Shown here: positions 45,705-53,239 of the stretch, one piece after another
Layout: every line of letters begins with the position of its first letter
Numbering within the stretch: position 1 is the stretch's first letter
NCBI RefSeq assembly: GCF_002953935.1
Contig: NZ_CP026514.1
Span: 4,030,001-4,094,000 of the forward strand
Direction of reading: 5' to 3'
Length of the DNA: 64,000 bases
From: Arthrobacter sp. PGP41
GTDB taxonomy: Bacteria; Actinomycetota; Actinomycetes; Actinomycetales; Micrococcaceae
Notes under the pieces: model-generated
Databases searched by the model: none
Seen by the model: only the letters and a program-made list of their open reading frames with translations
Told to the model about the DNA's origin: nothing
Position numbers and translations under genes: made by a program

Positions 45705-46796
45705 TTACTTCACGGCATCCGCTGCGGTGGCCAGCTGCGGCAGGAACGTATCCAGCGACCACGGCAGGCTCAGCGGGGAGGAAGCGGAGATGGACAGCGT
45801 CAGGGTGTTGTCCGAATCGGCAACCAGGGCGCCGTTCTTGATGGCCGGGATCTGGCTCAGCAGGGGATCTGACTTGATGGAGTCAGCGGTGGCTGCATCC
45901 GGCACCCAGGTCACGAAGATGTCCGATTCGAGCTCATTGGCCTTTTCAGTTGACCAAGGGAGGAAGAACTCCTTGGAACCCTTGGACTTCTCCTCCACGA
46001 TCGGGGCCAGCTTCATGCCGATCTCGTTGAGGAAGCGGGGGCGGTTGTCCATGGCGGTGTAGACGTTGACGCCGTCGCCCTTGGCCGGCTCGAGGTTGCC
46101 GTAGATGAAGCTCTTGCCGGCGAGCTGCGGGTACTCGGCAACCTTGTCCTTAATGGCGGCCTCGGTGTCGGAAATCAGCCTGGTTGCCTCGGCGTCCTTG
46201 CCGAGTGCCTTGCCGATGATGGAGGTGGAGTCCTGCCAGGAGGTTCCGTACGCGATTTCCGGATGGGCCACAACCGGGGCGATCTCGCTCAGTTTCTTGT
46301 AGTCCTCCTCGGTGAGGCCGGAGTACGCGGCCAGGATGACGTCCGGGGTGAGCTTGGCGATCTCGGTGAAGTTGATGCCGTCCGCCTCGGAGTACTGGAC
46401 CGGGGCCTTGTCCGAGCCGAAGCCTGCGCCGAGGTCCTCCAGGGCTGCGTCCTTCCAGGGCGTGGAGCCCTGCTCGTTGCCGCCCCATTCGTTCTTGGGA
46501 ACGCCCACCGGGACAACGCCCAGGGCAATGGCCACATCGTCATTGACCCAGGAAACGGTAGCTACCCGGGTGGGCTGCTTCTCGATGGTGGTCTTGCCGT
46601 ACACGTGCTCGATGGTGACGGGGAACTGCGCGCTGCTGGCGCTGGATGCGCTGGCGTCCGAGGTGGAGGACGCGGGGCCTGTTGAACAGGCGGAGAGGGT
46701 AAGTGCCGCTGCGGCCAGGACGGCCGTTGCCTTGCCGGCTGATTTGAACAGCGTGCGGCGGGTGGTGCCGGGTCCGGAGAAGAGGGGGGAAGTCAC
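45705..46796 (-). CDS. Ferric-siderophore binding lipoprotein
   Basis: 363 residues from a GTG with AAGGAG upstream. The N-terminus has a Tat-like RRTLFKSAG and a lipobox ending LSAC at Cys37, then a Ser/Ala linker. The mature part is a FepB/FhuD-type PBP with VTIEHVYGKTTIEKQPTRVATVSW and the DVILAAYSGL segment. First gene of the operon, preceded by a DtxR/IdeR box, so it should be induced under iron limitation. Confidence 0.93.
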   Translation of the reverse strand: MTSPLFSGPGTTRRTLFKSAGKATAVLAAAALTLSACSTGPASSTSDASASSASSAQFPVTIEHVYGKTTIEKQPTRVATVSWVNDDVAIALGVVPVGVPKNEWGGNEQGSTPWKDAALEDLGAGFGSDKAPVQYSEADGINFTEIAKLTPDVILAAYSGLTEEDYKKLSEIAPVVAHPEIAYGTSWQDSTSIIGKALGKDAEATRLISDTEAAIKDKVAEYPQLAGKSFIYGNLEPAKGDGVNVYTAMDNRPRFLNEIGMKLAPIVEEKSKGSKEFFLPWSTEKANELESDIFVTWVPDAATADSIKSDPLLSQIPAIKNGALVADSDNTLTLSISASSPLSLPWSLDTFLPQLATAADAVK

Positions 46797-46842: not shown

Positions 46843-46911
46843 CCTCGGGGCCATTACGCAAGGTTTCTGTAACTTATTCCCCATCGTGACGAAGCACACA
46901 CCCCGCCGACG

Positions 46912-46996
46912 CTCTCTCACTTAATGCAGGAAAAACCCAAACCCTCTATCACCGGGTGATGGAGGGTCTGGGGAAAAGGCACATTAAGTGAGAGAG
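46912..46996. repeat. 85-bp nested inverted-repeat element
   Basis: Outer arms CTCTCTCACTTAATG (46912-46926) and its exact complement (46982-46996), with an inner near-palindrome at 46941-46967 (ACCCTC/GAGGGT around ATCACCGGGTGAT). It begins 8 bases after the jetC stop. The arms resemble those of the cluster at 19961-20165. It could act as a terminator, but no T-run follows; it may be a small mobile or REP-like element. Confidence 0.75.
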
Positions 46997-47003
46997 GGTT
47001 CCG

Positions 47004-50000
47004 TCAGCGCAGGACGATATCCACCGGGTTCGCTTCGGAGCGCCAGGCGCCTTCTTCGCCCGGCCGGGGCTTGATGACAGGCGCGGTGAGCACGCCGGAG
47101 CGGTTTGTCCGCTTGTCGCGGAGGATTTCGGTGACGGAACCGAGGTGCCGGGAGAGGTCGATGACGTTCTCCGGGGCAGCCAGCAGCAGCTGGAAGCCGA
47201 ATTCGTGCAGCGCCTTGATCCCGGCGCCCGCAAACTCCTCTGACGCCAGAACGAAAGCCTCATCCATCATCACGGTGCCGTACGTGGTGAACCCCTGCTC
47301 GGCGATGCCCAGCTGGTAGCTCAGGGCCGCGGCCATGATGAAGGCCGTGAAACGCTGCCGTTCACCGCCGGACATGGATCCGGTGTCCGCGTGCATAAAG
47401 ACCTCGGTTTTCCCGCGCGCCTCGCGGTGTTCCTTGCACTGGATGAACAGGTGGCCGCGCACATCCAGCACCTCGGCCCGCCACCGCCTGTCCTCCGGCG
47501 CCTGTGAGCCCAGCCGCTTCACCAGGGTTTCCAGGGACTTATAGCGGGCCGTGAGCTCGGCGTCGTCGTCCCTTTCCTGGCCGGCCCCCTCCGCCTTGGA
47601 GGCGTCCGGGCGGACGGGCCGGGCGTGCCGCGCCTTGAGGGCGTTATGGATGGCGTCCTTGAACTGTTTGGCAGTGGGCGGCAGCGTTTGCTTGATGTCG
47701 AGCTCCAGGAAGCTGCCCTCGTGGAAGTTGACCTGCGACAGGATGCCGTTCAGCGGAAGGATGCGGCTGGTGATGGAGCGGCGTTCCTCGTCGAGCAGGT
47801 GCAGGAGGGTGCTGAAGGATTCGTGCGTGCGCTGGTTGAAGAACTGCCGGAATTCCGCCTCCTGGGCGGGCAGCCCGTCGCTCACGATCGCATGGTAGCG
47901 GGTCTCGAACTCGCCCGCGGCGCCGATGGTGGTGCCATGGTCCGCGGAGATGGCGCTCCCCCACTCCCGGACGAACCCCTCGAAAATCCTCGTCAGCCGC
48001 TCCGCCGTGGACTGCCCGCGCGACTCCGCTGCGTGCAGTTCACCCAGCAGTCCGGTCCGCACCCGGTTGGCCAGGTTGTCCAGCTCGTGCATCTCCGTCA
48101 CGTCGCCGAAGTCGGCAAAGTACGGTTCCAGCGCGCTGACCGTAGCGTCCGACGGCGGAGCCTGGGCCAGGCGCTTGCGTGCGGCTTCCAGCAGCGAATC
48201 CGCCGCGGTCAGCTGCCGGTCCAGCGACTTGTATTCGCTTTGCAGGACGGCGGCGGCCTCGGTGCTGGACTGGTGCTTCTGCCGCGCTCCTTCGATGGCC
48301 GCGCGGAGGGGCTCCAGGTCCGCCTGGGCGGCCAGCGCATCCTTGAGTCGCTGTTCGATCCGGGCCAGCTCCTCGGCAGCAACCTCCGCCGAAACCTGTT
48401 CCCACGAACGGTGGTCCTCCGCGACCCGGCGCAGGGCCTCGAGCTGCCGGCTCATGCCCTGGTGCGAATCCTCCCGGCTTTGCGCGAGCTCCGCCGCCTT
48501 GGCAACCTCCTGCCGCAGGTCCTCCACCTGGCCGGCCACGAGTTCCAGCTTGGCGGCGTTATCGAACCCGAGGACGTAGTCCTGCCGGCTGGTAAAGCGG
48601 TCGTCCTTTTCCACCGTGTGGCGGTTGCGCTTCACCACGCCGCCCAGGCTGAGGCCGCGGTCCAGCCCGGCGAGCTCGTCCGGATCCTCAACGCAAGGGT
48701 AGGCAAAATCAAGCGCGATCCGCTCACGGATCCAGGATCCCGCTTCGGCGGCGACGCCCGTGGTGAGGATGTCCAGCTTGGTGAGCAGGTCGCCGTCGTG
48801 CACGTCCTCCAGCGCCAGCGCACCACCGGATAGCGGCTTGGACACGTCAACCGCCCGCAGCGCTCCGCGCACGTTGTGGCCGTTGAGGTAGCGGGTCACG
48901 GCAGCGAAGTGGGCACCGGGCACCAGGAGCGTGGTGGCGAGGTTGCGGAGCGCACGCTCGGCGGCTGGGCGCCATTTTTCCTCCCCCTCGGCAAGGTCCA
49001 TCAGCTCGCCGGCGAACGGCATCCTGTCCTCGGGTATGCCGGTGGCGGCGGCGATCGCTGCGCGGTTTTCAATGCTCGAAGGCGGCAGCAGCGACTTGCG
49101 CGTCTTCAGCGAGACGAGCTCCTGCTCGGCCGCGGCCAGCTCCCGCTTCTTCGTGGCGTGCGCGTCGAACGCTTCGAAGCGCAGCTCCTGCAGGGCCTGG
49201 GAGTCGTCCTTGAGCTCTGCCGACCTCGCGGCCGCTTGCTCGTGCGCCTGTTCCCAACCACCGGAGGACCACTCCAGCTGCAGGCCGGCATCGGTCAATG
49301 CCTGGCGCGCCGCCTCCTCCACCTGCTCGCGGAGCTTCAGGCCCACGCGCGCGTTCTCCAGCGACTGCTCAATGGCGGAAATCGCGTTGCCGCCCTGGTT
49401 GTTGTAGTCCGCCTCCAGCTGGCGCAGCTCCTTGGCCAGCCCGTCCCGGACCGCCCGTTCGGCGCCGAGCTCCTTGGCCTTCGCCTGGGCCAGCTCCTTG
49501 AAGCGGAGCAGTGTCTTTTCGTGGACCGAGACGGCCAGCTGCTGCTTGTAGGCCTCGAATTCCTCGCCGGCCAGGTCCCGCAGCCGGTTCGCGTCCAGGA
49601 GCGCCTGCGCGTACTCCTTGTTGAGCCCGGGAACCGGGGCGAGCTGGTCCCGCTGCTGCCGGACGTCCTCCAGCCGCTGCCGGATGGACATCAGGTTGCT
49701 GAATTCCTCCACGACGTCGTCCGCTGCCGCAAGCGTGGCCGGGGCGTCCAGGACCTGGTCGCGGAAGAAGGTGTTGACGCTGCCGCCGAGGCCCTTGCCG
49801 GCCTGGATCACGCGCAGGAGCGGAAGGGCCTGGTCCGAGTTGATGCCGAGCAGCCGGCGGAACCGTTCCGCAAACGCCTTGTGGACATCGAAAACCTGGG
49901 CCTCCGGGAAGATCGCCTCCAGGGCAGCCTTGGTGAACCGTTTGTCGGCGATGCCTTCCAGCGTCTCCAGGTCCAGCGGCTGGTGGTCCACAAGGTAGAA

Positions 50001-50453
50001 GCGTCCCACGCTGGACTCCGTGCCGTTCTTGGGCAGGTCGAACAGCGCCGAAACGGTCACCCGCGTGCCCGCGGCGTTGTCGAACGTCAGGGCGACGGCG
50101 GACCAGGTGGCACCGGGCCGCTGGAAGGCACTCGCCGAGCCCTCGCCCACGGCCTTGTCGCCCACCTTGCCACGCATGTACGTAAACGTGGTCCGCTTGT
50201 CCTCCACTGCACCGCCGGACCGCTGGGCGGCGGCCTCATTGGACCTCGGCCGGGCGTCGAACACCCGCAGCATGGCATCAAAGAGCGTCGACTTGCCGAC
50301 GCCGGAGTTGCCGGTCAGCAGCGTGCCGTTCCGGTCCACGTGCATCGTGTGCGCCCCGTGGAACGTGCCCCAGTTGACCACCTGCACCAGGGCAAGGCGC
50401 ATCTGGCCGGGGTTCGTCAGCTCGCCCATAGGCAGCATGCTCGCGATGCTCAC
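47004..50453 (-). CDS. jetC: Wadjet/MksB-type SMC-like ATPase JetC
   Basis: 1149 residues from a GTG overlapping the jetB stop. Walker [10 protein letters not shown] is at residues 48-56; the C-terminal head has signature [10 protein letters not shown] and Walker [14 protein letters not shown]. Between lie long coiled-coil stretches rich in Glu/Ala/Leu with a central hinge (about residues 480-620). This is the SbcC/MukB-like core of Wadjet (JetABCD) or MksBEFG, which extrudes DNA loops and restricts plasmids when paired with a nuclease. It is the last gene of the operon. No JetD follows. Confidence 0.9.
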
Positions 50454-51256
50454 TGGGCATCCTCCACTTCAGTTGCATCCCCGGTCCCGACGGGGTCAAT
50501 CACCGGATCCGTGTCCAGCTCTATTAATGCCTCGGTGCCCGCAGGATCCGTGGTCGCCGCCACCAAGGCTTCTATTTGGGCCGGGATGTCGCCGATGTTC
50601 TCGAAGGGGAGGGCAAGGGGCAGCGCATTGGAAATGGTGTAGACGTCCTCCAAGCCCGTGGGCAGGAGGAGCTGGCGGGCCAGCAGCTTGGTGATGGCCC
50701 TGTTAACAACGTCCGAATCCCGGAGCGCGTCCTGCTGGCCCGCGGGCTGGTAGTGCGCCACGAGGTCGGCGATCTCCTCGCGCGTGATGGTGGGGTCCGT
50801 CTGCGCCGTGACATGCCGGTCCAGCAACAGGCGCAGCCGGAGAAGCACTATGGTCTCCACCCGGCTGAGCGCACGCTGCTGCCGGAGGATGCTGGAGCGG
50901 GCGCTGCCCCCGATCGCGTCCGGATCCACCGGCCGCAGGACGGCAATCTTCCGTTCGTGGTCCAGTTCCATGGTGAGGAACAGCTCCGACAACCGGCTGC
51001 GCAGGATCACCTGGTTGTCCAGGAGGACGGTCCAGAGCTTCTCGTCCCGGCCGCCGTCGATATACGGACCCTTGAGGAGCTTCACCAGCGCCTGCCGCAC
51101 CTTCATGGAGAGCACGCCCGTATCACCCGGGAAGAGGGCCGCACCGTCGACGAACGTATCGCGCGGGGTGACGGCGAAAGGCCGTTCCGCACCGGAGGCC
51201 GCCCCTTCGCCGCGCTCTACCTCCGGGGCCGCCGTCGTCGTCATTTCTTCAGTCAT
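50450..51256 (-). CDS. jetB: Wadjet/MksE-type accessory protein JetB (DUF4194)
   Basis: 268 residues. DUF4194 features: [41 protein letters not shown] and [17 protein letters not shown], predicted winged helices that form the KITE subunit of the SMC complex. The C-terminal 40 residues are acidic and low-complexity. It overlaps both neighbours by 4 bases, so jetA-jetB-jetC are translationally coupled. Confidence 0.9.
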
Positions 51257-52707
51257 CGTGAATCCTTTGGAAGCGTGACCAGCGGCAGGTAGGCCCTGCG
51301 TGGGGTTCCGTCTATCTGTTCGAAGTCCAGGGCGTCGAGGGCTTCCTTGTCGAAGCCCGCTCCGGCGTGGAGGGCGTGGGAGAGGAGCGCCCGGATGGTG
51401 TTGATGTGCTGCTCTTCCGGGGGCAGCTGCTGCCAGGCTTCGGAAAGGGTGGCGGCGCCGGCCATGGCCGCGCGCACCACCTCGGGCTTGGCCTTGCCGG
51501 TCCTCGGCGAGCGCACGCGGTCGGCATCGCTGAACGCGATGGGACCCGCAAGTTTGGGCGGAGCGGCGAACTCGTCGGGGTCGAAGAGCTTGACCATGGA
51601 CAGCGACTCGAATCCGGCGTTGAAGAGGACAGGACCGCGGACCAGGCCGGGGCGGTCCCGTTCGTACGGAAGGGACCGGATGGCCTGCTCCGCTTCCCGG
51701 AGCACCTGGCGGAGCCGGACTGACTGGCGGAAGTCGTCGCTTTGGACGTAGGTGTTGAGGCTTTCGCTCAGCTTGCCGTAGATCCGCTGGATCTGGCTGT
51801 GCTGCTGGCGAAGCTCGGCCACCAGGTTCTTCAGCGTTTCCCGGTCCTCGGGCGAGAGGTCGTCGGCGAACTGCCGGCTGAGGACCTCGCCGATCGCGGA
51901 CCGGAACCTCAGCTGCTGCTGCGGGTCCTCGAGGAACGCGGTGAAGGAACGGAAGGTCCTGCCCTCGGGGCTCTGGCGGAGGCGCTTGTCCGCTTCCAGG
52001 ACCTGGGCCATGGTGGCGCCCTTGGTGAGCGACTCCTCGATGATCTGGTTGCGCAACCCGCCCACCAGTTCCTCGATCCGGTCACGCATCTTCTTGTAGT
52101 CGGCCGGCAGGCTCGCGGCGAGGTCCAGGATGTTGCCCGCGGCTTCCACCGCCTCGTCGTCGTCCAGCAGGCCGTCGAACTCGCCGGAGCTGATGTCCTG
52201 GATCAGCTGCCGGCGTTCTTCAATCTCCTCTTCCAGCGACTCGAGGCGGGCGCTCTGGTCCGGGTTGGTCTCGTTGGCGAGCTTCTCGACGTCGCCCAGC
52301 AGCGTGCCGAGGCGTGATCCGTTGAGCGTGGAGCGTTCGCTGGAGAGGCTGTCCAGGAAGGCAAGCACGCGGGCGGCCGGTTCCGTTACCTCGTAAACGA
52401 TCTGGCCGGACTGGTTCCGCCGCGTCAGGAACTGCCGGCGCGTCCACTCATCGCCAAAGGACTTTCCATTGGCCCCGCCGCCCAGCCCGGGCTCCTGCCG
52501 GCGCAGCTCCTCAAGGAAGGAGTCGACGTCGGCGTGGAACTCCTCGAGCGGAAGCTGGGGGCGGGTGCGGGTGAAGGATGCCTGCAGCACCGCGATCACC
52601 CAGGGGGCCGAGCGCGTCAAGGCCCAGGCAGGTCCTTTGGTCAGGAGTTCGAGGTCCCGGAGCCGGGCGCTGATGGCCTCAGCGGATGACCTGGCGGAGC
52701 GGGGCAC
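51253..52707 (-). CDS. jetA: Wadjet/MksF-type kleisin JetA (DUF3375)
   Basis: 484 residues from a GTG with AAGGAGAG upstream. DUF3375: N-terminal winged helix, [33 protein letters not shown] near residue 90, then helical coiled-coil stretches ([34 protein letters not shown]). It is the kleisin that bridges JetC heads. First gene of the operon. Confidence 0.9.
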
Positions 52708-52936: not shown

Positions 52937-53239
52937 ATGCACTTCGATCTCAGTTCAGTTGAAACCGCCACCATGGTCTTCGCGGGCACCCTGGTGTTCG
53001 CCGTGATCCTGGCGGTATTCGTCCTGGCGGCGGGACTGGTTGCCCTGGTGCTGCTGGGAATCGGAAAGCTGGGCTGGACCGTGGTTTCCACAATCCTCCT
53101 GGCCGTGGTCCACGGTATCAACGCAGGCTGGGACAGGCTGGTCCATCACGCGGCGGGGGTGGATGTTTCCGGCGATTTCCAGGCCCAGCACTCCCCTAGC
53201 ACCGGAACCTACCCGCGGGTAATCTTGAGGGACAGCTGA
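52937..53239 (+). CDS. Small membrane protein of unknown function
   Basis: 100 residues from the ATG at 52937 (AGGGGG upstream). Two hydrophobic helices in the first 65 residues (VFAGTLVFAVILAVFVLAAG and LVALVLLGIGKLGWTVV), then a polar tail. The upstream part of the frame does not look coding. Divergent from jetA. No family recognised. Confidence 0.65.
   Translation: MHFDLSSVETATMVFAGTLVFAVILAVFVLAAGLVALVLLGIGKLGWTVVSTILLAVVHGINAGWDRLVHHAAGVDVSGDFQAQHSPSTGTYPRVILRDS

Follow-up and report, generated by a model that had tools for sequence, protein, structure and literature searches.

Wadjet type I (JetABCD; MksBEFG in C. glutamicum and EptABCD in M. smegmatis) consists of three motor subunits and a nuclease, JetD or MksG. 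The MksBEF complex of P. aeruginosa is a condensin without a nuclease, encoded alongside SMC-ScpAB in the same genome (PMC10586767 and PMC7485682, in their available text). MukBEF of the gamma-proteobacteria is built on the same kleisin-KITE-SMC-like plan and, according to the accessible part of PMC10586767, replaced SMC-ScpAB in its hosts. Here we describe a jetABC operon of Arthrobacter sp. PGP41, which lies in a 64,000-nucleotide stretch of contig NZ_CP026514.1 (positions 4,030,001 to 4,094,000; hereafter the window) of a genome that consists of one contig of 4.27 Mb. The operon shares with Wadjet type I the three motor subunits, their order A-B-C, the short gene overlaps and the ATPase motifs, but it has no adjacent JetD/MksG and holds a stable place in the core genome rather than occurring sporadically. 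Like P. aeruginosa MksBEF, it is a motor without a nuclease beside SMC-ScpAB, although its sequences group with the Wadjet models. Unlike the hosts of MukBEF, the Arthrobacter genome keeps SMC (915 bits) and ScpA, so the complex is not its sole condensin. We conclude that JetABC, whose genes are core in the Arthrobacter group, is probably a nuclease-free, auxiliary MksBEF-like condensin.

All three genes are on the reverse strand, with overlaps of 4 bases at both the jetA/jetB and jetB/jetC junctions. jetA (51253..52707) encodes a 484-residue kleisin resembling MukF/MksF, jetB (50450..51256) a 268-residue KITE protein resembling MukE/MksE, and jetC (47004..50453) a 1149-residue SMC-like ATPase resembling MukB/MksB. 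The PADLOC models JetA1 (E 3.9e-261), JetB1 (E 6.4e-156) and JetC1 (E 0) cover the proteins almost from end to end. Pfam recognizes DUF3375 in JetA, DUF4194 in JetB, and AAA_29 and SbcC_Walker_B, corresponding to either end of an SMC-like ATPase, in JetC. Reading the JetC sequence, we located an intact Walker A motif (residues 48-56; 50286..50312), ABC signature (SGGERQR, residues 1028-1034; 47352..47372) and Walker B motif (MMDEAF, residues 1062-1067; 47253..47270), all encoded on the reverse strand. A preliminary description of this DNA had reported three intact, overlapping genes with these motifs, and our coordinates and domain searches bear it out. Simple patterns for all three motifs match in 50 of 61 JetC proteins from loci without JetD; the 11 misses include 3 truncated sequences.

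Comparison with solved structures leads to the same assignments. JetC matches the JetC proteins of E. coli and P. aeruginosa PA14 from Wadjet structures (E 1.7e-62, with 8as8_A the best, and 3.8e-61), and the window JetA matches the JetA of these structures as well (8q72_E, E 2.1e-23). A search of the Protein Data Bank (PDB) with the single JetB sequence of the window gave no match; a profile of its relatives matches the Wadjet JetB there. The predicted JetB model (mean predicted local distance difference test score 73, predicted template modeling score (pTM) 0.57) has JetB 8dk1_E as its closest PDB fold (E 4.3e-10), followed by MukE. The JetA model is poor (pTM 0.31, template modeling score about 0.3 to PDB JetA) and is therefore not used as support. 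As a possible marker of JetD loss we looked at the IFDR motif through which JetB contacts JetD (PMC10586767); in the PDB chains it lies outside the aligned region. Near its N terminus the window JetB carries an L[FW]xxDxG motif that is absent from the JetB of Dermabacteraceae and also from that of the complete Jet system encoded in the same genome. The G+C content of jetABC is 0.66-0.68, compared to 0.643 for the whole window and 0.644-0.653 for that second system.

There is no jetD in the locus, as the preliminary description had noted. Of the explanations it offered (jetD was lost, it sits elsewhere, or the operon is a nuclease-free MksBEF), the data favor the last. A search of the whole genome, which it had proposed, yields a single JetD_C match (C1:1094388-1094918), located 3 Mb from the window jetABC within a complete jetABCD operon. 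A JetD is thus indeed encoded elsewhere, but its place inside an operon of its own indicates that it has its own motor, and the JetA of that second system is only 23% identical to the window JetA. The surrounding region (C1:1080000-1101148; L002, L003) also encodes a 2159-residue helicase-like protein, a 752-residue protein and a lipase-like protein, named by eye, and is probably a defense island.

The presence of one JetD in the genome raises the idea of a split Wadjet, in which the window JetABC borrows the nuclease of the second locus in trans. Besides the separate operon and the divergence of the two JetA proteins, a survey of 61 genomes of the genus, 58 of them rated good, speaks against such borrowing. 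JetD_C occurs in 20 of the 61, and 40 of the 41 genomes that lack it retain the window-type JetA, the exception being G027. This largely refutes a split system across the genus, and we regard it as very unlikely. A second, divergent JetA is present in 18 genomes, all among the 20 with JetD_C, and none was seen in the other 41. The two JetD_C genomes without it have a JetD remnant of 46 positions (G019) or a JetD near a contig end (G028). That the second JetA is confined to JetD-bearing genomes indicates that JetD accompanies the other system.

The window-type JetA itself is found in 60/61 genomes of the survey and in every good one (58/58). In 58 genomes it is unbroken and 86-100% identical; G030 and G053 have it split, and it is missing from G027, which is 68% complete. 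A defense system would be expected to have a patchy, mobile distribution, an expectation that this near-universal presence and a stable neighborhood contradict. Ratios of nonsynonymous to synonymous substitution rates, computed for the three genes between the window and eight members of the genus, range from 0.04 to 0.13 (24 values); jetABC is under strong purifying selection. None of 20 genus loci, each 13-14 kb long, has a JetD next to the window-type genes, and none was seen next to jetABC in 48 loci collected by name from Arthrobacter, Paenarthrobacter, Pseudarthrobacter and one other member of the Micrococcaceae, some of which end soon after jetC (L269, L277). The closest locus outside the genus (G158; JetA 49% identical) likewise lacks JetD. 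As far as these 20 and 48 loci reach, the window JetABC comes from a family without jetD, the outcome that the preliminary description had named as telling against its suspicion of a missing gene.

Downstream of jetC lies an inverted repeat (46909..46999; genome alignment and folding), which we examined as a possible mark of something lost. The 85-bp repeat begins 7 bases past the jetC stop and contains a second stem nested inside the first. Its arms, described earlier as perfect, are so over the outer 15 bases only and match at 94% when 18 nucleotides are considered. The sequence folds far better than shuffled versions of itself (z -8.8). Searching it against its own genome returned 109 alignments at E <= 1, its own place included, and by hand count 22 other places resemble it at E <= 0.001. 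Such repeats often sit in small clusters in this genome. The repeat is absent from the same position in all 20 relatives compared. Two of them (L198, L200) share a 10-base word with it there, and three others (L204-L206) have different inverted repeats of 12-19 bases, with an arm in L204 that is similar. The repeat looks like a dispersed element of the repetitive extragenic palindromic type, uninformative about jetD, and we treat it as context rather than as part of the system.

Another reading is a recent loss of jetD from this strain, leaving a decaying defense system with the repeat as its mark; the repeat does lie exactly where jetD would be. We nevertheless rejected the repeat as a jetD scar, because it is dispersed in the genome and the relatives that do not have it equally lack jetD. 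The comparison with relatives suggested earlier thus finds jetD at the repeat position in none of the 20 genus or 48 named loci, and the strong purifying selection is not that of a decaying operon. Recent loss is refuted as far as we sampled, and we hold it to be extremely improbable.

The genes flanking jetABC are neighbors only. Beyond the repeat lies a gene for a siderophore-type periplasmic binding protein (45705..46796, reverse strand; Peripla_BP_2 in Pfam), and genes for such a binding protein and a permease follow jetC in 17/20 genus loci. Upstream of jetA, as reported before, is a divergent gene for a small membrane protein (52937..53239, forward strand, starting at ATG), identified as an open reading frame with similar proteins in relatives and without a Pfam or NCBIfam match. 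In genus relatives similar proteins occupy the same place, accompanied in most of the 14 loci we displayed by an upstream gene for a large enzyme, which we take to be an acyl-CoA dehydrogenase. In 8 of these 14 loci (L187, L188, L192, L194, L197, L199, L200 and L203) the next gene after jetC, on the same strand, encodes a lipoprotein and is about 220-290 codons long; it is absent from the window. At the sister locus L147, neither the divergent membrane protein nor the large-enzyme gene adjoins jetABC. We considered these genes as a replacement effector adjoining jetABC and found no constant candidate among them, the lipoprotein gene being absent from the window and the upstream genes from L147.

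These observations also bear on the idea that JetABC acts against plasmids without its own nuclease, either by recognizing and compacting small circles, so that their replication is blocked or their copy number falls, or by passing them to an unrelated nuclease encoded elsewhere. JetA, JetB and JetC are recognized by Wadjet models and match the JetABC of solved Wadjet structures, and a partner encoded elsewhere would be compatible with the synteny. However, there is no conserved fourth gene at the locus, and the core distribution is unlike that of the sporadic JetD-bearing systems. An anti-plasmid role thus seems unlikely, though it is the most plausible of the alternatives we weighed.

We instead favor a nuclease-free condensin. 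Since the set lacks the nuclease that defines Wadjet, we do not class it as a Wadjet defense system, although its parts are of the Wadjet type. By analogy with P. aeruginosa MksBEF, loop extrusion and a chromosomal role are most likely. The kleisin JetA and the KITE protein JetB would connect JetC dimers, which would hydrolyze ATP; the complex would load on DNA, extrude loops and help to organize or segregate the chromosome alongside SMC-ScpAB. Lacking JetD, it would not bring about cleavage on encountering a small circle. A specialized complex for DNA repair or replication, with no link to global chromosome folding, would fit the present data equally, which do not separate it from a condensin. 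Known nuclease-free relatives act in chromosome organization, according to the available text of PMC7485682, and we consider this option improbable.

Several points weigh against an auxiliary condensin. The window JetB scores 25.0 bits with the Pfam MksE model (PF21980), below its cut-off of 27, and is closer to the Wadjet JetB models. Broken copies exist in the genus (jetC in L190, jetA in G030 and G053), probably caused by sequencing error. No parS-like site with up to 2 mismatches to the consensus occurs within the window. Finally, MksB of C. glutamicum, an actinobacterial protein whose system includes a nuclease, is reported to act on plasmids and to have no role in chromosome organization, in the part of PMC7083940 available to us.

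The combination seen in the window genome recurs in a published one. Table 6 of PMC11719660, a PADLOC survey of Paenarthrobacter lasiusi S21, lists JetABC without JetD as well as a full JetABCD1, the same pattern of JetABC plus a separate JetABCD. In the accessible text of that paper the JetABC is counted as antiviral defense, and the absent JetD is not discussed.

Motors without JetD are not peculiar to the genus. Across the order, we scored 198 genomes for JetA and JetD_C and found the former in 79 and the latter in 40. Intersecting the two sets by hand gives 38 genomes with both and 41 in which JetA occurs but JetD_C does not, which makes JetD-less motors common in the order. A tree of JetA and JetC from 81 loci, 20 with JetD and 61 without, contains 12 separate JetD-less clades. 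The JetD-less loci of the Micrococcaceae form one of these (28 loci, support 0.978) and those of the Dermabacteraceae another (12 loci, support 1.0), with JetD-bearing loci between them. Both clades recur in another tree, built from 36 rows, in which the Micrococcaceae one comprises 9 rows at 100. In a further clade, from family f8 (L155-L159, L174, L179), JetD-less jetABC adjoins the same gene of about 890 codons in 7/7 loci, another stable place; from a motif in it, we presume this gene to encode leucyl-tRNA synthetase.

A common origin of the cutter-free complexes of the Arthrobacter group and the Dermabacteraceae was not recovered, and the approximately unbiased test rejects a single clade (p 0.0024), with a warning of long branches. 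Weighing against separate origins, 4 of 8 Dermabacteraceae loci have siderophore genes homologous to those of the window after jetB. These are Brachybacterium loci (L148, L149, L153, L175), with the genes directly after jetB and 43-49% and 53-56% identical to the window neighbors. Equal-cost parsimony requires 9 changes of JetD state, from a JetD-less root, on the 81-locus tree and 4 on the 36-row tree. Because the choice of loci leaned toward those without JetD, some of which are so labeled on cut contigs (L165, L169), the trees do not tell whether JetD was lost or had never been present.

In the Dermabacteraceae (Brachybacterium, Dermabacter), a complex of this type persists where SMC and ScpA are not found. 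JetA is present in all 13 sampled genomes, and JetD_C is absent from 12; the remaining one (G163) carries it within an additional, complete set. No SMC above the cut-off was found in these 13 genomes. ScpA was likewise not found in any, 11 being listed as negative and two (G233, G247) not appearing among the positive rows. In a wider search of 47 family genomes, SMC is absent from 46 and present in G673, which has a complete JetABCD at C4. Among the 34 genomes that this search added, the stretches we fetched show JetABC without JetD in G674, JetC in G642, G646 and G668, and a complete JetABCD in G654, while those from G671 and G672 show no Jet gene. Nor was JetD seen in 30 loci that we collected by name, of which 29 are labeled as Dermabacteraceae or its genera and one as 'Actinomycetales bacterium'. 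The three genes are adjacent in two Dermabacteraceae bacteria (L239, L240). Dermabacter and Helcobacillus (L238, L241, L242) still have jetB and jetC next to each other, and the jet genes of Brachybacterium are dispersed over up to some 18 kb.

As far as gene content indicates, the cutter-free complex may be the only condensin of the Dermabacteraceae, a possible parallel to the replacement of SMC-ScpAB by MukBEF. Against such a takeover, two other genomes, G169 and G112, lack SMC and ScpA and have no JetA match, so the loss of SMC alone does not show replacement by Jet. SMC and ScpA are also missing from G096 and G155, which have JetABCD, and from G183, which has JetABC without JetD. Four of these five genomes (G096, G155, G169, G183) belong to genus g25 of family f4, and all five are small actinobacterial genomes. 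The case for the Dermabacteraceae rests on the consistency of the pattern within one family, and that pattern may reflect a single event. Among the papers listed, by title and abstract and with subscription papers outside the search, we found nothing on SMC loss in the Dermabacteraceae, and no paper in the literature searched treats Brachybacterium, SMC and condensin together.

The two groups raise the possibility that cutter-free motors became housekeeping condensins more than once in the Actinomycetota, as an auxiliary complex in the Arthrobacter group and separately as the sole one, replacing SMC-ScpAB, in the Dermabacteraceae; we judge the chances of this to be about even. A nuclease-free motor is already known from Pseudomonas. 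What is new is that such a motor is core to an actinobacterial genus and that, in a parallel line, it seems to have taken the place of SMC-ScpAB.

Defense-annotation tools score the cutter-free set as Wadjet despite its missing cutting part. If JetABC is indeed a condensin, many 'Wadjet' annotations in Arthrobacter would be wrong, and the group would provide cells in which a JetABC that has JetD coexists with one that lacks it. In the Dermabacteraceae, the idea of a shared evolutionary path for MukBEF-like condensins and Wadjet becomes testable where no SMC is found. If such motors did become condensins repeatedly, the Actinomycetota would have their own counterpart of MukBEF and would be a natural experiment on how a machine for plasmid defense is converted into one for chromosomes, or vice versa.

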